From Affinundibacterium baiyunense (GTDB taxonomy: Bacteria; Pseudomonadota; Gammaproteobacteria; Burkholderiales; Burkholderiaceae_D), in assembly GCF_018139645.1 (NCBI RefSeq), contig NZ_JAGSPM010000004.1, positions 310,001 through 374,000 of the forward strand: DNA of 64,000 nucleotides, read 5' to 3'. How positions within the stretch are numbered: position 1 is the stretch's first letter; each line of letters starts with the position of its first letter. Made by a program: the position numbers and the translations under genes. Under the pieces are notes generated by a model. It had not been told where the DNA came from. It saw only the letters and a program-made list of their open reading frames with translations, and did not search any database. Below are positions 25,711-34,704 of the stretch, in pieces.

Positions 25711-26937
25711 ATGGACATCGCAACAAAAATCAAAACTTGGGCCGGCAATAACCTACCTCTCATCTTCGCCATATTACGTTTCATCAAACCGAATCTTGTA
25801 CTTAAAGAATTTGCTTTGATCACTCGCTTTAGCGATGTGCAAGAAGCACTATCTCGTCCGAATGCGCTCGGCGTGACTTACGCAGAGAAGATGGAGAAAA
25901 TTACCGCTGGCAGTAACTTTTTTCTCGGGATGAACGACACCCCACAATACACCCGCGATGTATCCAATATGCGTTTAGTAATCCGGCGCGATGACCTAGC
26001 TCAAATCGTCGCCCCTATGGTCGAGCGATTTGCGGAACAGCTGGTGAACAAAACGGCTGGACAAATCGAGATGGTTAGTCAACTCAGTAGCATCGTTCCT
26101 TGCCAATTTAGTGCTGCATATTTGGGCGTTGCAGGGCCAAGTCAAATAGAACTATTCGACTGGACTAGCAGTATGTTCGCCTACTTGTTTTATCCCAATA
26201 ATCCCGCAGAAGTTGATCAAGCTGCACTCGCCAACAGCGTAAAAACTTGTGCCTATTTGGATCAACTCATTGCGCAAAGAAAACTAGCACTAACGCAAAA
26301 TACAGCATCAAATCAAATCAGCGACGATGTACTTAGTCGGTGTCTGCAATTGCAAGCAAGTGGCACGCCAGGCATGAGCGATCTGGAGATTCGTAACAAC
26401 TTGATTGGCATCATTATTGGTCTAATGCCGACCACTTCTAAATGCGCGGTCTTGGTCATCGACTATTTACTTGATCATCCCGCGTTACTTGCCGAGGCAC
26501 AAGCAGCAGCGCTACAAGACGATAATGAAAAACTCCGTAAGTTCGTGCTTGAGGCATTACGATTCAATAGCTTTGGCGCCGGAATTTTCCGTATCGCCAA
26601 TGAAGACTACGTGATCGCCAGTGGTAGTTTGCGCGCAAAGAAAATCAAAAAAGGCACTAAGGTCTTAGTCGCATTGCAATCAGCGATGTTGGATGGACGC
26701 GCACTCGATGATCCAAAATCTTTCCGACTCGATCGCCCTGATTATCATTACATGCACTTTGGTTATGGCATGCACACCTGCTTTGGTCAATACATCAATA
26801 TGGTGCAAATTCCCATGATTATCAAAGCCTTGCTTCGCAAAAAAAATCTACGCCGTGTACCTGGAGATGACGGCAAAGTTCGCTATCAAAATAGCTTCCC
26901 GACTAGTTTGCATTTGTCTTTCGATCAGGTGTCGTAA
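25711..26937 (+). CDS. Cytochrome P450 with atypical I-helix
   Basis: A 408-residue soluble P450. The heme-binding loop is intact, FGYGMHTCFG with Cys357, and the K-helix ExxR is Glu281-Arg284. The I-helix, however, reads IIIGLMPTTSKCAV at about 234-247, so the usual acid-alcohol pair (Asp/Glu-Thr) is replaced by Pro-Thr. The helix C region reads NDTPQYTRDVSNMRLV, without the common His. Loss of the acidic residue is seen in P450s that use peroxide or act as isomerases or dehydratases rather than mono-oxygenases, so ordinary oxygen activation is in doubt. No ferredoxin or reductase gene is nearby. AGGGAGATCACT precedes the ATG. It opens the plus-strand series that leads to the MNIO genes. Confidence 0.88.
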   Translation: MDIATKIKTWAGNNLPLIFAILRFIKPNLVLKEFALITRFSDVQEALSRPNALGVTYAEKMEKITAGSNFFLGMNDTPQYTRDVSNMRLVIRRDDLAQIVAPMVERFAEQLVNKTAGQIEMVSQLSSIVPCQFSAAYLGVAGPSQIELFDWTSSMFAYLFYPNNPAEVDQAALANSVKTCAYLDQLIAQRKLALTQNTASNQISDDVLSRCLQLQASGTPGMSDLEIRNNLIGIIIGLMPTTSKCAVLVIDYLLDHPALLAEAQAAALQDDNEKLRKFVLEALRFNSFGAGIFRIANEDYVIASGSLRAKKIKKGTKVLVALQSAMLDGRALDDPKSFRLDRPDYHYMHFGYGMHTCFGQYINMVQIPMIIKALLRKKNLRRVPGDDGKVRYQNSFPTSLHLSFDQVS

Positions 26938-27024
26938 GTGACTCAATAGATGTCGGCATACTCAATGCCAATCACTAAACCCGAATATTCATTAATCCTC
27001 ATCACAGATTGAGAGGTCGAGATT

Positions 27025-29385
27025 ATGCAAACCCAGCACCAACTTTCCCAAGAAGTGATTGAGGCCGAGCTGGAAGAAATCAATCAACGTCAATTCTTAG
27101 ACAATGACGGCAAGCTGTTATCACGTCATGAACAAGCCTTGATCGATTTTGATCGTATCTTGCTTGCACCTGAAAAACGCTCGGCAGTTCTGAATGAGGT
27201 GCTGGACGAAATTCACAACACCCAAGCGGCGTGGGATGCCGATCCTGATGTGGCACATCGAGGACTAGTTGGCCTAGCGTTTTCTGGTGGCGGCATACGA
27301 TCAGCGACGGTCAATTTAGGCGTGATACAAGGGCTACGAAAACTAGGCTTACTGAAAGCGGTCGACTATCTGTCTACGGTATCTGGTGGTGGCTACATTG
27401 CCTCTTGCTACAGCGCAGTACACGCGGTTGAAACGCAACAACAATTGGAACATGCAAATCTCACAAAAGCACAAACTGACACCAAATCACACACTGAGGT
27501 AAGTACAAGTCAACACGCTGAACAAGTCAAACAAATACGCGCCCATGAGGCCTTATTTGGACACCAGCCAGGCGTTCGAGAAAACGCTGTTTTTCGCCAT
27601 TTGCGCAATAATGCAAATTACATGGCCCCCGGCGGATTGATCGATGTATTACGTGTACCAAGCGTGTTCTTGCGCGGCATGTTTGTCAACTTCTTGATCG
27701 TTTTTCCAATATTGTTGGTGATGGCGGCAATCAGTGTTTTACTCATCTCTAACTCCTCAAACCCACGTCATCTAATTGCCTCATGGTTTGCTCATTTTCA
27801 TTTACCTATCATTGAAAACTTCGCCATCACGCTTGCGCTAATTTATGCAACGATAGCGATGTATCTGCTTTCGCCGCTCGCCAATTTGCTACTTGCATCA
27901 ATCAAACAAAAAAGGGAACTAACAACAGAAACTGAAAGTAAAAACGCGAATTGGCTTCGTCGCGACAAAGCAAGCAAAGTGTTAGGCTGGTGTATCGCTG
28001 CCATACTGAGCAGTTTCTTCATTGAGTTACAAGTCATCGCAATTCATCTGTACGGTACTGAAGTTGAAGGCCGATTTAGCTTTCAAACTTTAATTCTGTT
28101 CGGAAGCTTCTCTGCTTTCGGATTGAGTTATTTGGCGTCCAAGCTCTTGCCTAGCATCGCAAGTCTCGCATCACGACTAACCATCTATCTCTTGGGCTTG
28201 ATTGGGTTTACGGTGTTCTGGCTATTCTATCTGCATCTATGCAATGACTTACTGCATATAGCGCCCTCCCCGCTAGCTGAATTTGCATGGAAGAGTCCAA
28301 TCGGATTTTTCACTATTGCTTTGATTTTGTTCTTATTTAATCATTACACGGCGAACGTCAACTTTACTAGTTTTAGTTGCTTCTACCGAGATCGCTTAAG
28401 CAAAGCCTATATCTTTGGCTTAAACCGACAAGCAATGGTGCAACAAGCAGATGAACTAAAACTATCGGAATTAGATTCGACATTCGCTCCCTATCACTTG
28501 CTCAATTGCACCTTAAATCTGAATCGCACTAGTCAAGCCTACTGCGATGACCGACGTGGTGACTTTTTCTTCTTCAGTAAGCGCTACGTGGGTAGCGTCA
28601 GCACCTCTTACTGCCGCACCGAAGAATTAGAGAAACAAAATTCTGACCTCAACTTAGCCACCGCAATGGCCATATCGGCAGCGGCAGTCGCGCCAAATCT
28701 TGGAAAGAGCACTATTAAGCCATTAGTATTCATCTTGGGCATGCTCAATATTCGCTACGACTATTGGTTGGCAAATCCCACTTGGATTAAGCACAAACGA
28801 GTAGTCAAAAACCGTCCAGGTCCAAATTACTTTCTGCGCGAACTAACTAGTAACTTAACTGCCGACTCCCCGTATATCAATTTGTCCGATGGTGGTCATA
28901 TCGAAAATTTAGGGATCTATGAATTAATAAGGCGAGAATGTAGGCTGATCATCGCTGCCGATAGTGAGGAAGATTTAGGCCTGACTTTTTCTAGTCTTGC
29001 AGATGTCATTCGTTTGGTGCAAATCGATTTCGGTGTAATCATCGTGATGCAAGGATTAGACAAGATTCGTAATGGTCAACAGCACTATGCGATTGGCAGT
29101 ATTTATTATCGCAATGAAAAAGTGGGTAAATTAATTTACCTAAAAACCTCCTTGTTGGGTGACTTTAGCTTGCGAGATAGCTTATCGGATGAAGCCTATT
29201 TATCCTCACATTTGCGCAGCGATAATTTTGCCTTTGATCACAATCCGTATATCGCGCATTACAAAATGCAAGACCCCGCATTTCCACATCAATCTTCAGC
29301 AAATCAGTTTTATGACGAAACTCAATTCGAATGCTATCGCTCTTTGGGATTTCAAATCGCTACCGAATCGCTAGGAAGACGCTGA
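27025..29385 (+). CDS. Patatin-like phospholipase with membrane domain
   Basis: A 786-residue protein. The patatin catalytic parts are split: the oxyanion loop GLAFSGGGIRSATVNLG (about 85-101) and nucleophile Ser in TVSGGGYIAS (about 119-128) lie at the N-terminus, while the catalytic Asp is in NLSDGGHIENLGIYEL near residue 630. Between them sit about six membrane helices (roughly 215-440). The active site faces the cytoplasm if the N-terminus is inside. The expected reaction is lipid acyl hydrolysis. It starts 87 bases after the P450 gene, with GAGAGG upstream of the ATG, and is probably cotranscribed. Residues 130-195 form a polar insertion rich in Gln, His and Thr. Confidence 0.85.
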   Translation: MQTQHQLSQEVIEAELEEINQRQFLDNDGKLLSRHEQALIDFDRILLAPEKRSAVLNEVLDEIHNTQAAWDADPDVAHRGLVGLAFSGGGIRSATVNLGVIQGLRKLGLLKAVDYLSTVSGGGYIASCYSAVHAVETQQQLEHANLTKAQTDTKSHTEVSTSQHAEQVKQIRAHEALFGHQPGVRENAVFRHLRNNANYMAPGGLIDVLRVPSVFLRGMFVNFLIVFPILLVMAAISVLLISNSSNPRHLIASWFAHFHLPIIENFAITLALIYATIAMYLLSPLANLLLASIKQKRELTTETESKNANWLRRDKASKVLGWCIAAILSSFFIELQVIAIHLYGTEVEGRFSFQTLILFGSFSAFGLSYLASKLLPSIASLASRLTIYLLGLIGFTVFWLFYLHLCNDLLHIAPSPLAEFAWKSPIGFFTIALILFLFNHYTANVNFTSFSCFYRDRLSKAYIFGLNRQAMVQQADELKLSELDSTFAPYHLLNCTLNLNRTSQAYCDDRRGDFFFFSKRYVGSVSTSYCRTEELEKQNSDLNLATAMAISAAAVAPNLGKSTIKPLVFILGMLNIRYDYWLANPTWIKHKRVVKNRPGPNYFLRELTSNLTADSPYINLSDGGHIENLGIYELIRRECRLIIAADSEEDLGLTFSSLADVIRLVQIDFGVIIVMQGLDKIRNGQQHYAIGSIYYRNEKVGKLIYLKTSLLGDFSLRDSLSDEAYLSSHLRSDNFAFDHNPYIAHYKMQDPAFPHQSSANQFYDETQFECYRSLGFQIATESLGRR

Positions 29386-29472
29386 TGCGAATTTGAATCA
29401 CTAATAGCAATTCCATATAGCGCCACCTGAGGCCTTCACTTCTTCACTCAGCTCTATTCTTTAAGCGCATTC

Positions 29473-29500
29473 ACACGTAATCATCCTTTTGATTACGTGT
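29473..29500. other. Perfect inverted repeat before the lectin-like gene
   Basis: ACACGTAATC and GATTACGTGT form a 10-base perfect stem with an 8-base loop, without an adjacent T run on either strand. It lies in the 301-base gap between the patatin-like and lectin-like genes, about 190 bases before the next start. It may be an operator or an RNA processing site; I see no gene in the gap. Confidence 0.45.
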
Positions 29501-29686
29501 AATGCAAAAAAACTACTCTCTTAAAATCAGGCTCTTGCCACTGACAAAAGCCCATCCATATCTGGTAATTCTGTTTGGCATAAAAAATGCTAAAGCATCT
29601 ACACCAGCCGATTTTGCTTCTCATTCAATCATAAAATAAATCGGCAAATTTGACTTTTTATCGGGTAAAAAAACGGGGGTGCCTCA

Positions 29687-31030
29687 ATGCCAAATCAACG
29701 TATTGTGGTGCAAGCGACACAAGCTTGGACCGATACTGGAATCATGATTTCAGCAGATAACGCCGTCACAATCAGTTTTCAAACAGGTGCGTGGACTGCC
29801 GATCCGCAGACCAACCAGCAGCAACTTTATGGCCCCGCTGGCGACTCACAAATTATTGTCCCACCGACCCAAACACAGTATCCTTTGGTCGGTGCACCAA
29901 TGGGCGCCTTAGTTGGACGAATTGGCGACAATCCGGTATTTCTAATTGGTGCAGGTCCGACAGAAGTACCTCGCGGCCAGACAGGTTCTTTGTCTTTGTG
30001 TATCAACGATGATATTCACGCGGTGTACGGTCCAGGGCTTGCCGACAACCGAGGTCAAATTACTGTCTTCATTTATCACAGCAACACAATACCCATTCTT
30101 ACCCGCAGTATCATCAACGAACCAGCACAAACATCACCAGCGGCGCCAACGTCTAGTTTAGGCCCACTCGAATATTTAATTGGCACATGGACGAATAAAC
30201 TCACTGATACAGACGATCTGCCCTACTCATACAATGTCATGCCCTTGCCTCAGCTTGATCCTAGTTCACCAACGGGCTACATACTGAAAAATTTTGCCTA
30301 CTACGAAGAACTGAGCTTCAGCGCAATTCATGGCAGTGCAGCAAATCGTGGTGGAATCGGTACACAAAACTGCAATGTCTTATTCTATGAACAGCGTGTC
30401 TATTTCGCCGAAGGTCCGAATAAGAATGCTTTAGTACATGCAGAAAACGGGTCACTACTCTTTATCAACGATCAGCTTCAACTGCTTGGCCCTTACGGTA
30501 ATGGTAATCAAGCAGGATTAGGAAATCAAACCGTCAAAGACAGCGTCGCGCCCTCGCAGCAGTTTAATATTATCAAGCAAATATCGGTACCACATGGCAA
30601 TTCCATCTTAGCTGCGGGTAGCTATCAACAGCAGTCTGGTGCGCCATCGATTCCTGTCGTATCAAGCTTGCCAGAAGGTGTCGATACACAGCAATACACA
30701 CAAATTGATCCTATTTCCAATCCCAATCCAAGCTACACACGCAATCCCAATCAAGCGCTCGCCGATGCCTTACTTGCTGCGCCAGTAACGACATTCCTTA
30801 CATTAAATGTCAGCAGCAAGAACGGCGGCGGAGGTGTCACTAACATAGGCTTTGAACAGCAGCATGCGCAAGTCGAATCTTACCAATGTACCTACTGGTT
30901 AGAAGCCTTAAATGAAGCAACAGAATTCACTCAACTCCAATACTCACAAACCATCATGATGCGCTTACCGATCGGTGAGCAATTCATTCTTTTTCCACAT
31001 ATAACGACGAACACCTTAAGCAAAATGTAG
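29687..31030 (+). CDS. LecA-like lectin domain fused to a possible beta-barrel domain
   Basis: A 447-residue protein without a signal peptide. Residues 1-137 match the PA-I (LecA) galactose-binding lectin pattern: VVVQATQAWTDTGIMIS, a YGPAGDSQ segment, GALVGRIGDNPVFLIGAG, SLSLCINDD and DNRGQITVFI. In LecA, Asp and Asn residues of the last two strands bind calcium and sugar; equivalents (NDD, ADN) are present. After a Pro/Ala linker, residues 158-447 begin LEYLIGTWTNKL, recalling heme-binding nitrobindin or lipocalin-like barrels, but this is a weak resemblance. GGGGGTG precedes the ATG. It is 71 bases before the ferritin-like gene. A sugar- or glycolipid-binding role within this cluster is inference. 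Confidence 0.68.
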   Translation: MPNQRIVVQATQAWTDTGIMISADNAVTISFQTGAWTADPQTNQQQLYGPAGDSQIIVPPTQTQYPLVGAPMGALVGRIGDNPVFLIGAGPTEVPRGQTGSLSLCINDDIHAVYGPGLADNRGQITVFIYHSNTIPILTRSIINEPAQTSPAAPTSSLGPLEYLIGTWTNKLTDTDDLPYSYNVMPLPQLDPSSPTGYILKNFAYYEELSFSAIHGSAANRGGIGTQNCNVLFYEQRVYFAEGPNKNALVHAENGSLLFINDQLQLLGPYGNGNQAGLGNQTVKDSVAPSQQFNIIKQISVPHGNSILAAGSYQQQSGAPSIPVVSSLPEGVDTQQYTQIDPISNPNPSYTRNPNQALADALLAAPVTTFLTLNVSSKNGGGGVTNIGFEQQHAQVESYQCTYWLEALNEATEFTQLQYSQTIMMRLPIGEQFILFPHITTNTLSKM

Positions 31031-31101: not shown

Positions 31102-32781
31102 ATGTCTTCTAAACCAATTCATAATGCTCAGCAATTTCCTGCCGACCGATCCGCCTTGCATCAGTTATTGCAACTCGCCGTCGAGGTTGAGCTGTTTACG
31201 ATCCCGCTCTATATGTCTTCACTGTATTCTATTCGTGGCATGTATATGAGTTCGTCTAGCAGTCAAGCCTTGTGGCCAGGCATAAAGCCAAACCCCAATG
31301 TAAGTAGCGCAAATCAGTATGCATACAATGCTATCTTCAGTGTCTACATTCAAGAAATGCTGCATTTACAGTTGGCAAGCAATTTATGTACTGCCGTGGG
31401 ACTAACTCCTCAATTTCCGGCTCTCGATTACACCAAGTTTGGCACAACAATCCCCTGCATTGGCGACTTAAGAAAGGTCAAAGGGTATGAGGATGTCGAA
31501 GTAAGATTGGGGCCATTAGATCGCAACCAAATCAAGCTATTTCTAGCGATCGAAATGCCTGACTGGGAAGCAAACGACGATGCTCATTTACGCCCTACTA
31601 CCCCATTTCCTACGGATGCTAGTGGCAAACCGGTAATCCCATCGGAATTTGGCTCAATTGGGCACCTCTACCACTGCATTCAGCAGTACTTTGATATTGT
31701 CTATGACGACAAAACGACTTTATGGGAAAAACTATTTACAGCAAATTCCGTACAAGTGGATATGTTTAATTTTAAATCCGCGAGCGCGCAACATCCCAGC
31801 AGAGAATATCCACATTTTCCGGTGACCATTGCCAGTGATGCGACTGCAAAGCAAGCACGTAAGACCGCACAAGAAATGATTACTGCGATTCTTGATCAAG
31901 GTGAAGGTGCGCAAGCTAATTCCGTAGTCCCTAGTCGATTTGTACCTGCCGAACAAAAGATGGAGAAAGACGAGAGCAAGGGAAACGCGGTAGTTCGCGC
32001 ACAATGGGATAAACAAAGCCACTATGATCGCTTCGCGCTAGTTGCGTCTTGGTTAGACATGATAGAAACTTGGCCGACCTGGTTGGCGTCACGTCCGAAA
32101 GCTGGGGCCTGGACAGCAAATGACTTATTAATGGAGCCTAGCCAAGCCACGCCAGCTGAATTCGAAGCTGCTCAAGCACGTGCCTTAGCAATGAACGATC
32201 CCACTACTCCACCTGAAATTGACAATGCACTAAGCCATAGCTACTGCAATCTTCTTGCGGCAATTGAATCGAGCTGGAGCGATGCAAAAATTAGCTTCCC
32301 CGCTGCAGCTATGCAAGCTTTATCAACCCGTGTTGCTACGGTATGGGCAACTGGTGGCTCACCTAGTTTTACTCCTGTTACACCGACTGTGATTAGCAAC
32401 AACGCACATGCATGCCAGGGACTTGATCCAAACTCACCAGGAACGAATAGCTGCGCCAATGCTGTTATTCATACCTGTGCTGGATCGAATAGTTGCGCCA
32501 ACCAAGGCGGGTGTGGGTACCCTCCGAGTCAAAGCTTGCCTGATTTCAATTCAGCAGCGGGCAATGGAGGCTGTGGTGCGCCGATTCCTGATGCACAAAT
32601 TTTTCACAGTACAAATCCAGCGATTTCTGTCGAGGGCGTTAATATTGGGGCGAGCAATGGCCAAAGTGTCTATGACACGGCCTGGCAAGTGTTTCAAGCC
32701 CGATTTGCATCCAATCCCGCAATAAAGGCAGCACAGAAACCCAAACCCAACAATTTGCGTATTGTTCTACCACCAAGTTAA
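31102..32781 (+). CDS. VioB-like ferritin-fold protein with cysteine-rich C-terminal segment
   Basis: A 559-residue protein. Residues about 15-320 match the ferritin-like domain called iminophenyl-pyruvate dimer synthase, known from VioB of violacein synthesis: possible metal ligands are Glu28/Glu30 in VEVELFTIPLY, Glu85 and His88 in YIQEMLHLQLASN, His188 in SIGHLYH and His307 in SHYDRF. A helical region runs to about 415. Residues 436-492 then hold six cysteines in CxG/NSC/GGCG patterns: C438, C451, C459, C465, C471 and C491, with NSCAN twice and GGCG twice. About 67 residues follow. This segment resembles cysteine-rich substrates of MNIO enzymes, and an MNIO gene follows 88 bases on. I infer that the tail is modified by it. 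AAAGG precedes the ATG. No other violacein genes are present. Confidence 0.75.
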   Translation: MSSKPIHNAQQFPADRSALHQLLQLAVEVELFTIPLYMSSLYSIRGMYMSSSSSQALWPGIKPNPNVSSANQYAYNAIFSVYIQEMLHLQLASNLCTAVGLTPQFPALDYTKFGTTIPCIGDLRKVKGYEDVEVRLGPLDRNQIKLFLAIEMPDWEANDDAHLRPTTPFPTDASGKPVIPSEFGSIGHLYHCIQQYFDIVYDDKTTLWEKLFTANSVQVDMFNFKSASAQHPSREYPHFPVTIASDATAKQARKTAQEMITAILDQGEGAQANSVVPSRFVPAEQKMEKDESKGNAVVRAQWDKQSHYDRFALVASWLDMIETWPTWLASRPKAGAWTANDLLMEPSQATPAEFEAAQARALAMNDPTTPPEIDNALSHSYCNLLAAIESSWSDAKISFPAAAMQALSTRVATVWATGGSPSFTPVTPTVISNNAHACQGLDPNSPGTNSCANAVIHTCAGSNSCANQGGCGYPPSQSLPDFNSAAGNGGCGAPIPDAQIFHSTNPAISVEGVNIGASNGQSVYDTAWQVFQARFASNPAIKAAQKPKPNNLRIVLPPS

Positions 32782-32869
32782 GTTTTCAATTTTATGACAA
32801 GAGACTTTTGTATATCTACCTTTCCGTTGATCGTGTAAAAGTCTCTGCAATCCAAGGACCAGTCTATAC

Positions 32870-33817
32870 ATGCAAGACCCATTCAATCAATCGCGTTCAA
32901 TTGAACACCGCTTGCCCAATCTTGGATATGGGATTGGACTACGTCCTTGTCACACGCAAGACCTACTGCGATATCAAGCTGGGGAAAAAATCGGCGATCA
33001 CTTTGCACCAGATTGGTTGGAGGTCATCACGGAAAATGTAATGGATGATCATGGCGTCAACCGTCGGGTACTGCATCAAATTGCAGAAAGCTATCCCCTT
33101 GTGTTTCACGGTGTTTCACTCTCGGTCGGTAGCAGCGAGGCCCTCAATATCGGCTATCTGAATAAATTAAAGCAACTATGCGCAGAGTTCTCGCCAGTGT
33201 GGATTTCTGACCATTTATGTTGGACTAGCTTCGGCGGTATCAATAGTCACGACCTACTACCTATGCCCTTACATCAACACAGTTTGAGTCACCTTATTGC
33301 CAGGGTAAATCAGATTCAAGACTTTTTGGGACGCCGCCTAATTTTAGAGAATCCGAGTAGTTATCTACATTACCTTGATTCAGATATGCTGGAGTGGGAG
33401 TTCCTTAATTCACTGTGCGATGCGACCGGTGCAGGCATACTATTAGACATCAACAATATTTACGTCTCGGCATTCAACTTAGGCTTTAACGCAAACGACT
33501 ACATTCAAGGTATCACCCCCGACCATGTCGTTCAAATTCACCTCGCAGGCCCACAACACTGTGGTACCCACATCATCGATACGCACGATAGTCCTGTACC
33601 TGAGGTAGTCTGGCAACTTTACACACAACTGATACGCAGAACAGGGCCTATCAGTTGTCTATTAGAATGGGATGCAAATATTCCAGAATTTCACATTCTT
33701 CTGAGTGAACTTGCAAAAGCGAGGGATGTATTTCCAATTTCAAAATCGAACACAAAAATCGAGGCGGCTGTAACGATAGCAAGGCACGATAAATTCTCTA
33801 TGAGAATTGCAGTATGA
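32870..33817 (+). CDS. DUF692 multinuclear non-heme iron oxidase (MNIO)
   Basis: A 315-residue TIM-barrel enzyme of the MNIO family (MbnB, TglH, BufB and relatives). Conserved metal-binding stations are visible: His80 in FHGVSLS, Asp114-His115 in SDHLCW, Glu160 in ENPSSY, Asp193 in LLDINN, His224 in IHLAG, Asp237 and His239 in DTHD, and Glu266 in LEWD. Known members oxidise cysteine residues of ribosomal peptides, forming oxazolone-thioamide, thiooxazole or related groups. The gene overlaps the DUF2063 partner gene by 4 bases (ATGA), the usual arrangement. No short precursor peptide gene is seen, and the adjacent cysteine-rich ferritin-like protein is the best candidate substrate. About 30 C-terminal residues extend beyond the core. 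Confidence 0.9.
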   Translation: MQDPFNQSRSIEHRLPNLGYGIGLRPCHTQDLLRYQAGEKIGDHFAPDWLEVITENVMDDHGVNRRVLHQIAESYPLVFHGVSLSVGSSEALNIGYLNKLKQLCAEFSPVWISDHLCWTSFGGINSHDLLPMPLHQHSLSHLIARVNQIQDFLGRRLILENPSSYLHYLDSDMLEWEFLNSLCDATGAGILLDINNIYVSAFNLGFNANDYIQGITPDHVVQIHLAGPQHCGTHIIDTHDSPVPEVVWQLYTQLIRRTGPISCLLEWDANIPEFHILLSELAKARDVFPISKSNTKIEAAVTIARHDKFSMRIAV

Positions 33818-34704
33818 ACCAGCAAATTGCGCAACTACAAGAACAAATATTGAAGCATATCACTGGCGTTTCTAGCACTACCATTGATACAAATTCCCTT
33901 ACAGCTTCCGCATTTTCAACTAGTTCGATTCAAACAATAGAAAATGGGGTTGATCACTTACTACGACCTAACGCACACTTACCCCCAGCCCAAGCACTCG
34001 CAATTTACCAACGTGCCTATATTGCTCGCTTACTGGAGTGCCTGCGCGCAGATTATCCTGTTTTGAGACAGTATTTAGGAACTCAACTATTCGATCATTT
34101 TGCGACCGAATATATCCAGGCTTTTCCTCCAACATCATATAGTCTGTTCGACTTAGGCAAAAATTTTTCAGATCACTTAGAACAAAGTTGTCCTGATCTT
34201 GCCTCATTTAATCAGCAAGATAAAGTAACTCACCAGTTACCAATACAAATCGCGGTAGCAGAACGGCTACGAATTCGCGCGGCACGTGCAATTGGTCTAG
34301 AACAACGCCAACTAATCGAACCCAACTACCACAACCTTCAGCATGCGAAGGCAATCGCATTATCTATTTCAGATGCTTGTGGCTTGATGTCTGCGCATCC
34401 AGCTTTACTCGATATTTTAAGCGGTGAAAATCGTGAACGAGATTATGTCAACATAGATCGCATCTATCTTGCGATCAGTCGTAGTAACTACCGAATCCGC
34501 ACAGACATCCTTCAAATATGGCAGTATCATTTTCTACATTTACTTGCGCAATCAACACAAACGCCGATTTTGCTAGAGGATCTAGTCATGCACACAAGCA
34601 AGGAATCTAACCTTGATGCTGAGACGATTTATGCACATCTTTCACTTTGGTTACCAATTGCCATTAGCAGAGCGTATTTATACGTCGAATTTGTTGATAC
34701 TTAA
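33814..34704 (+). CDS. DUF2063 MNIO-partner protein (HvfC/BufC/MbnC-like)
   Basis: A 296-residue protein. The DUF2063 domain lies at about 48-150, with LPPAQALAIYQRAYIARLLECLRADYPVLRQYLG as its core, followed by helices and a C-terminal winged-helix-like part (about 225-290). The domain was once called DNA-binding, but in RiPP clusters these proteins pair with DUF692 enzymes and help bind the substrate peptide. The start overlaps the MNIO stop (ATGA), so translation is probably coupled. The first 45 residues are Ser/Thr-rich and look disordered. It is the last gene of the plus-strand series; a 142-base gap follows. Confidence 0.85.
   Translation: MNQQIAQLQEQILKHITGVSSTTIDTNSLTASAFSTSSIQTIENGVDHLLRPNAHLPPAQALAIYQRAYIARLLECLRADYPVLRQYLGTQLFDHFATEYIQAFPPTSYSLFDLGKNFSDHLEQSCPDLASFNQQDKVTHQLPIQIAVAERLRIRAARAIGLEQRQLIEPNYHNLQHAKAIALSISDACGLMSAHPALLDILSGENRERDYVNIDRIYLAISRSNYRIRTDILQIWQYHFLHLLAQSTQTPILLEDLVMHTSKESNLDAETIYAHLSLWLPIAISRAYLYVEFVDT

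Follow-up and report, generated by a model that had tools for sequence, protein, structure and literature searches.

The closest described relatives of the locus reported here are the bufferins or captophorins, in which a Cys-rich substrate (BufA1, BufA2 or EGKCG) is encoded directly upstream of a BufB-group multinuclear non-heme iron-dependent oxidative enzyme (MNIO; DUF692), together with a partner protein (BufC) that joins a DUF2063 domain to a RiPP recognition element (RRE; RiPP, ribosomally synthesised and post-translationally modified peptide). The main text of PMC12668002 states that 5-thiooxazoles are formed in all characterised cases of an MNIO with a PME type 1 (PME1) partner, with products that generally bind copper, and the main text of PMC12452194 associates type-1 (DUF2063) partners with signal-peptide precursors. 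A 64,000-nucleotide stretch of contig NZ_JAGSPM010000004.1 of Affinundibacterium baiyunense, hereafter the window, contains the same type of MNIO and partner behind a Cys-rich substrate candidate with similar Cys motifs, but this candidate is a ferritin-like protein, 559 residues long in the window (the window protein) and longer in most relatives. We propose, with a probability of about 0.72, that these genes form a self-contained cassette in which the MNIO oxidises the tail cysteines of the ferritin-like protein to produce a tethered metal-binding arm.

The initial annotation of this DNA held that MNIOs usually modify short precursors; the precedent is wider, and a 2025 survey has already proposed in its main text that MNIOs modify proteins (PMC12452194). 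The large or fused substrates presented there (MerC-Buf, EGKCG-EF-hand and TIGR04222) also carry a Cys-rich segment on a larger MNIO-linked protein, but they are described as signal-peptide or membrane proteins, and the TIGR04222 clusters as lacking a DUF2063 gene. The word 'ferritin' occurs neither in the main text of PMC12452194, supplements aside, nor in those of PMC12538549 and PMC12668002, and a search of the open-licence PMC literature by titles and abstract starts found, among the matches listed, no paper on a ferritin-like/MNIO arrangement.

Linkage of the Cysteine Tail with the MNIO

An MNIO gene directly follows the tailed gene in all 23 loci whose contigs are long enough (the window, L001–L004, L012, L038, L039, L043–L050, L106, L107, L120–L123 and L125); for L044, L046 and L047 it is visible in L009, L014 and L021, shorter loci of the same genes. 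Outside this count are L017, where the gene is cut off by the end of the contig, and two truncated copies from phages, L124 and L126. In contrast, no MNIO was found in the available flanks, some of them short, of 24 genes for tailless proteins of the same family, PF12902 (a first set of 13 and a second set of 11, L145–L154 and L158); L034 has 0.9 kb downstream, and L147 and L154 are on contigs of 6.4 and 7.7 kb. Nor was one found beside L040, L041, L155, L156 and L157, which are partial, weak or below the cut-off and are omitted from the tailless count; L023 and L042 denote one gene. The initial annotation's idea that the Cys segment always accompanies a DUF692 gene is borne out in the loci sampled (23/23 against 0/24), among which no homologue with a linked MNIO lacks the tail cysteines, the nearest cases being single losses in L039 and L004. 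A DUF2063 gene of 265–369 residues comes next in 20 of the 22 testable loci (L012 omitted), and both exceptions are phages.

A profile of the tail matches 18/18 tailed and 0/13 tailless proteins at E-values up to 10, of which only the 0/13 is informative because the ten training rows of the profile came from tailed proteins. In a sample of the phylum that was not selected for the tail, the tail profile is found in 3 of 398 genomes and PF12902 in 17 of 398; these 17 comprise 3 tailed cases, all with an MNIO, 11 clear tailless cases, with an MNIO found in none, and 3 weak PF12902 matches. A sample of the class gives PF12902 in 9 of 369 genomes, 3 of them tailed and with an MNIO. The genome of the window is included in these counts, and the whole genomes sampled come from one phylum. 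Among relatives, the protein is present in 14 of 60 genomes, the window's own included, all of one genus; the versions from named loci of Undibacterium amnicola and U. seohonense are 87% and 79% identical, and a scan of genome contigs with one protein as the query found three close relatives.

Small Cys-containing open reading frames (ORFs) of 25–150 residues with at least two Cys were grouped around 19 loci, and each of the 14 widest groups occurs in at most four of them; both four-locus groups lie antisense to the DUF2063 gene, their positions having been compared by eye. A separate short precursor was rejected because no small Cys ORF is common to more than four of the 19 loci, in agreement with the initial annotation, which had reported no short precursor gene. 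Its suggestion that the large protein itself may be the MNIO substrate draws good support from comparison of the loci, namely the linkage and the Cys conservation.

The Cysteine-Rich Tail

The ORF of the window protein and its six-Cys segment had been placed correctly to the base by the initial annotation (Table 1). The tail cysteines are Cys-438, Cys-451, Cys-459, Cys-465, Cys-471 and Cys-491, with codons starting at 32413, 32452, 32476, 32494, 32512 and 32572, and the remaining 502 residues contain four Cys. Since 117 of 20,000 shuffles of the window protein have at least one 57-residue stretch with six Cys, the clustering alone is only moderately unusual and is weak evidence. Unlike the clustering, the conservation of these residues is strong evidence: Cys-438, Cys-459, Cys-471 and Cys-491 are present in 18/18 family members, the window included, and Cys-451 and Cys-465 in 17/18 each; 16 of the 18 members have 32–87% identity to the window protein. 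A seventh family Cys (column 485) is present in 15/18 and is replaced by Ala in the window, L001 and L003.

An AlphaFold2 model of the window protein (15 rows) is folded up to about residue 424; its fine detail is unreliable because the overall predicted local distance difference test (pLDDT) score is 62.7. The pLDDT is 24–29 over residues 431–500 and below 50 over residues 426–505, and so the tail is predicted to be disordered. A short helix follows the tail, in which Val-523, Ala-527 and Trp-528 are invariant in alignments of 16 and 15 rows; when a phage protein is added, Val-523 and Ala-527 are still invariant and Trp-528 is not. This helix is a possible recognition element.

By a crude hydropathy measure, no signal peptide is evident in the window protein: its best 12-mer scores 1.47 and lies inside the first ferritin helix, and two BufA precursors score 2.2 and 2.4 in the same test. 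Because the window protein lacks a hydrophobic N-terminal core, a cytoplasmic location of the ferritin-like protein is quite probable, and the cassette looks like an exception to the signal-peptide rule for DUF2063 partners. The longest frames of L012, L043 and L050 reach beyond the likely start and thereby gain a hydrophobic N-terminus; since the closely related L048 begins at the internal Met, this Met is presumably the true start in all three.

The Ferritin-Like Domain

The window protein scores 107.5 bits against the PF12902 cut-off of 22.3 in Pfam. The nearest solved structure among its matches is CC_0557 of Caulobacter (PDB code: 3hl1), with a Z score of 29.7 over 280 aligned residues and a root-mean-square deviation of 2.6, and the second-best match, a Dps-like protein, has a Z score of 9.2. 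Foldseek matches after 3hl1 have E-values of 0.36 or worse and are dominated by rhodopsins and transporters; true ferritins appear at 6.6. A scan of NCBIfam up to an E-value of 0.1 gave no family match, TIGR04222 included. Of the label 'VioB-like' in the initial annotation, we retain the membership of PF12902 and adopt nothing beyond it. Glu-30, Glu-85, His-88, Glu-151 and Glu-268 are present in 18/18 family members and His-307 in 17/18, suggesting that these six residues are putative iron ligands in a ferritin-type di-metal-site pattern.

PF12902 proteins such as CC_0557 share this fold and ligand pattern, but in three tailless ones CDGSH domains occupy the C-terminus, where the window protein has its Cys tail. 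These three (L036, 5776–7830; L109, 5010–6755; L152, 5091–7073) have two C-terminal CDGSH stretches each, with a ferredoxin-type match above the cut-off in L036 and L152 and below it in L109. This suggests that the PF12902 domain may cooperate with redox or metal modules placed C-terminally, and because three tailless relatives carry such stretches, the modified tail could be a module of this kind.

The MNIO and Its Partner

The window MNIO exceeds the cut-off of 310 for the NCBI bufferin maturase model NF050167, which places it in the BufB group, and all seven tail-linked MNIOs scanned pass this model. Glu-160, Asn-161, Asp-193, Asn-196, His-224, Asp-237, His-239, Glu-266 and Asp-268 are among the residues kept in 61/61 aligned MNIOs and are, as a set only, candidate iron ligands; Asp-268 is also the proposed catalytic residue. 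PF05114 is present in 31 of 41 genomes. Sorted by the upstream ORF, 65 MNIO loci, which include overlapping copies and were enriched for tailed ones by choice, comprise 30 with BufA1, 21 with a tailed ferritin-like protein, 10 with BufA2, 2 with EGKCG and 2 others.

The tail-linked MNIOs form one clade, with 18 of 59 rows at a support of 96/99 in a first tree and 23 of 61 rows at 100/99 in a second tree, to which phages and further genomes were added and from which L098, L099 and L082 were omitted because of their long branches or unusual composition. Between the two trees, support for the BufA1 group drops from 100/98 to 57/96. Within the same genus, MNIOs next to bufferin precursors fall outside the tail-linked clade; the window genome itself has a second MNIO (L083, G000:C14, 3274–4113), which is of the ordinary type with a BufA1-type precursor upstream. 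The position of Phe-250 in FonB has been tied to substrate choice in the main text of PMC12668002. The equivalent residue, located by the motif LE-x-D-x and not by alignment to FonB, is Ala in 19, Gly in 2 and Ser in 2 tail-linked enzymes, Asp in 8/8 BufA2-linked, Phe in 2/2 EGKCG-linked and Thr in 22/28 BufA1-linked enzymes. As a separate observation, the MNIO of L098 (G003:C2, 3222–4004), which groups with EGKCG-linked enzymes on a long branch, is preceded by an unassigned 102-residue precursor-like ORF with KKEASCSKK repeats.

The partner consists of a DUF2063 domain (residues 47–122) and an RRE-type domain (about residues 165–296). Its AlphaFold2 model (pLDDT 80.7) matches 3dee and TglI over most of its length, with Z scores of 14.1 and 12.3, and residues 165–296 match the RRE domains of TbtB, TbiB1 and PqqD with Z scores of 8.0–9.1 and also a methyltransferase with 9.6. 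The NCBIfam HvfC model scores 21.1 of the required 142 bits, far below the cut-off. By its predicted structure, the partner is a PME type 1 protein.

Resemblance to Bufferins

The tail motif N-x-C-A...H-[ST]-C-x-G resembles the central pair of Cys in BufA1, the pair modified in bufferin 1 according to the main text of PMC12452194, and is followed by a BufA2-like C-x5-C-x5-C motif. When the tail profile was compared with BufA1 and BufA2, none of 200 column shuffles reached either score. No match to the BufA1 (DUF2282) or BufA2 models was found in the window protein, for which Pfam gave PF12902 only and NCBIfam nothing up to an E-value of 0.1. The likeness is a resemblance and not proven homology; common descent and convergence to the preference of the enzyme would both fit.

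Gene Organization in the Window

The features of the cassette are listed in Table 1. The DUF692 gene followed by a DUF2063 gene with a 4-base overlap, as read by the initial annotation, is all present and was recognised by Pfam; 88 bases separate the ferritin-like gene from the MNIO gene. The 3 promoter-like sites are fewer than the mean of 11.0 in shuffled sequences, and the 8 terminator-like sites are near the chance level of 6.0. The heme-binding gene upstream probably does not belong to the core of the cassette; in loci searched with its product as the query, it adjoins the cassette only in the window, L001, L002 and L003. Genes for a P450, a patatin and the FMP-type heme-binding protein lie upstream of the window cassette (25711–31030), and weakly similar P450-like ORFs are also found near the cassette in L106 (2570–5119) and L122 (10504–12580).

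Table 1. Features of the cassette and its upstream neighbour (window coordinates).
Feature	Position	Strand	Evidence
Ferritin-like protein, 559 aa, proposed MNIO substrate	31102..32781	+	PF12902, E 1.2e-30 (residues 23-312)
Ferritin-like domain, residues 1-424	31102..32373	+	Z 29.7 to 3hl1
Cys-rich tail, residues 436-492	32407..32577	+	Conservation, low pLDDT, BufA1/BufA2-like motifs
Post-tail helix, residues 523-534 (VYDTAWQVFQAR)	32668..32703	+	Helix in model, conservation
MNIO (DUF692/PF05114), BufB subgroup	32870..33817	+	PF05114, E 3.4e-96; NF050167, 327.1 bits
MNIO partner, PME type 1	33814..34704	+	PF09836, E 2.9e-19
FMP-type heme-binding protein, upstream neighbour	29687..31030	+	NF040572, 247.3 bits

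Phage Cassettes and Possible Transfer

Two uncultivated phages of IMG/VR, IMGVR_UViG_3300041409_000508 (71 kb) and 3300036800_000259 (35 kb), carry a ferritin-like gene and an MNIO gene between portal/terminase and HNH/helicase genes, and two further phage contigs (L124 and L126) end inside the ferritin-like gene. The terminase of the former has 32.7–35.9% identity to the best 20 of 1,761 matching phage records, and its relatives are mostly Rhodococcus and Mycobacterium phages among the matches listed. The phage MNIO is followed by an ORF of 51–53 residues (L123, 10816–10977; L125, 11163–11318) that in a small search resembles only an early part of the DUF2063 partner (E-values of 2.6e-5 and 2.3e-4); with the RRE region missing, it is either a minimal partner or a remnant. 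A search of a phage collection with the phage ferritin-like protein gave no match. Bacterial DUF692-type RiPPs have been linked to phages by co-expression in passages of PMC11118758 that describe no phage-borne cassette. The phage cassettes span 3912–14905 in L123 and 2831–17583 in L125; in L125, a DNA methylase precedes the ferritin-like gene and the mini partner ORF is followed by an FMO-like flavin enzyme.

A tree of the domain splits 22 tailed proteins at a support of 100/100 from 13 tailless proteins and the tailed L107. L107 thus has the tail and an MNIO on a ferritin-like domain that groups with the tailless lineage, and its MNIO lies in the tailed clade, raising the possibility of a joint transfer of tail and enzyme from one ferritin-like domain to another. 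This reading, drawn from the domain tree and bootstrap trees, is tentative because L107 has a long branch and one change is enough in 10% of the bootstrap trees. The tail is rare in the order of G664 (4 of 200 genomes, G664 included) and in the class of G508 (1 of 78, G508 included), and therefore L107 may have been transferred recently or may lie on a contaminating contig. No plasmid matched the L107 tail in a tblastn search.

Proposed Mechanism and Alternatives

In the proposed mechanism, the RRE-type domain of the partner would recognise the ferritin-like protein, and the MNIO would oxidise cysteines of the disordered tail, most likely to 5-thiooxazoles as in characterised MNIO–PME1 systems. 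The product would be a ferritin-like protein, probably cytoplasmic, with a tethered soft-metal arm, Cu(I) being the most likely metal. Judged from the linkage and the conserved cysteines, it is very likely that the tail is modified at all. Since the enzyme and the partner belong to the MNIO–PME1 type, the same chemistry on the tail is the simplest reading, and by this analogy a 5-thiooxazole is the likely product; the chances that the modified arm binds copper are about even. It is fairly probable that the arm stays in place to serve the ferritin-like domain and is not cleaved away.

RiPP precursors are usually processed, and the tail is predicted to be disordered and lies outside the matched domain; the ferritin-like domain might thus be a giant leader from which a host protease would release the tail as a free metallophore peptide. 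However, the putative metal ligands of the domain are kept in 17–18 of 18 members and the post-tail sequence is conserved close to the C-terminus, which makes such a release unlikely. The MNIO might also install another group on the tail, for example a thioamide/oxazolone or a new product, as its separate clade and the mostly Ala selectivity position would allow, but this clade lies among bufferin-type MNIOs, its scanned members pass the BufB cut-off, and the 305-nm band persisted in products of the FonB variants F250A and F250D (PMC12668002, main text), so that a different group is rather improbable. Direct metal ligation by the H-x-C pairs and GGC motifs is conceivable, and the C-terminal CDGSH domains of the three tailless PF12902 proteins are in keeping with tail cysteines that stay unmodified and bind zinc or Fe-S clusters or form disulfides, while the MNIO acts elsewhere or tailors an unlinked precursor with the ferritin-like protein. 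Tail and MNIO are, however, jointly present or jointly absent in every testable locus, no small Cys ORF is widely shared nearby, and the second MNIO of the genome has its own adjoining precursor, leaving an unmodified tail very improbable.

Several observations weigh against oxidation of the tail by the linked MNIO as proposed here, or soften the evidence for it. The tailed and tailless counts are not independent because one genus gives 13 of the 23 tailed loci and the tailless L042, L051 and L158 are near-copies; a Fisher p-value was discounted as evidence for this reason. Single cysteines are lost in L039, with His for Cys-465 (SNLHKGQGGCG), and in L004, with Leu for Cys-451. The hhalign probability of the tail is modest, 41.6% against BufA2 and 21.8% against BufA1, compared with 87.8% between BufA1 and BufA2; the best shuffles come close to the true scores (22.5 against 24.0 for BufA2 and 19.3 against 20.4 for BufA1), and no tail reaches the BufA2 cut-off, two of four scanned relatives giving E-values of 0.18 and 0.27. 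A small selectivity residue is not exclusive to tail-linked enzymes, as Ala, Ser or Gly is found in 3/28 BufA1-linked ones. Given the longer frames of L012, L043 and L050, the absence of a signal peptide may not extend to all relatives; without a signal peptide, the recognition of the window protein lacks an explanation, and neither phage cassette has a full-length partner.

Implications

The proposed MNIO substrate is a whole ferritin-like protein and not a small peptide. If oxidation of the tail is true, a very widespread metallophore-making machinery would also take an intact metal-site protein as its substrate, probably inside the cytoplasm, and the link between DUF2063 partners and signal peptides drawn in the main text of PMC12452194 would be broken. 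It is conceivable, though doubtful, that a copper-loaded thiooxazole arm acts as an electron-transfer or metal-delivery module for the di-metal site, in place of the CDGSH and ferredoxin-type domains, and that phages use the same module. The cassette would provide a clean system for how a partner recognises a substrate without a signal peptide, and it raises the questions of how a thiooxazole arm would serve an iron-type protein and why such a cassette is found in phages.

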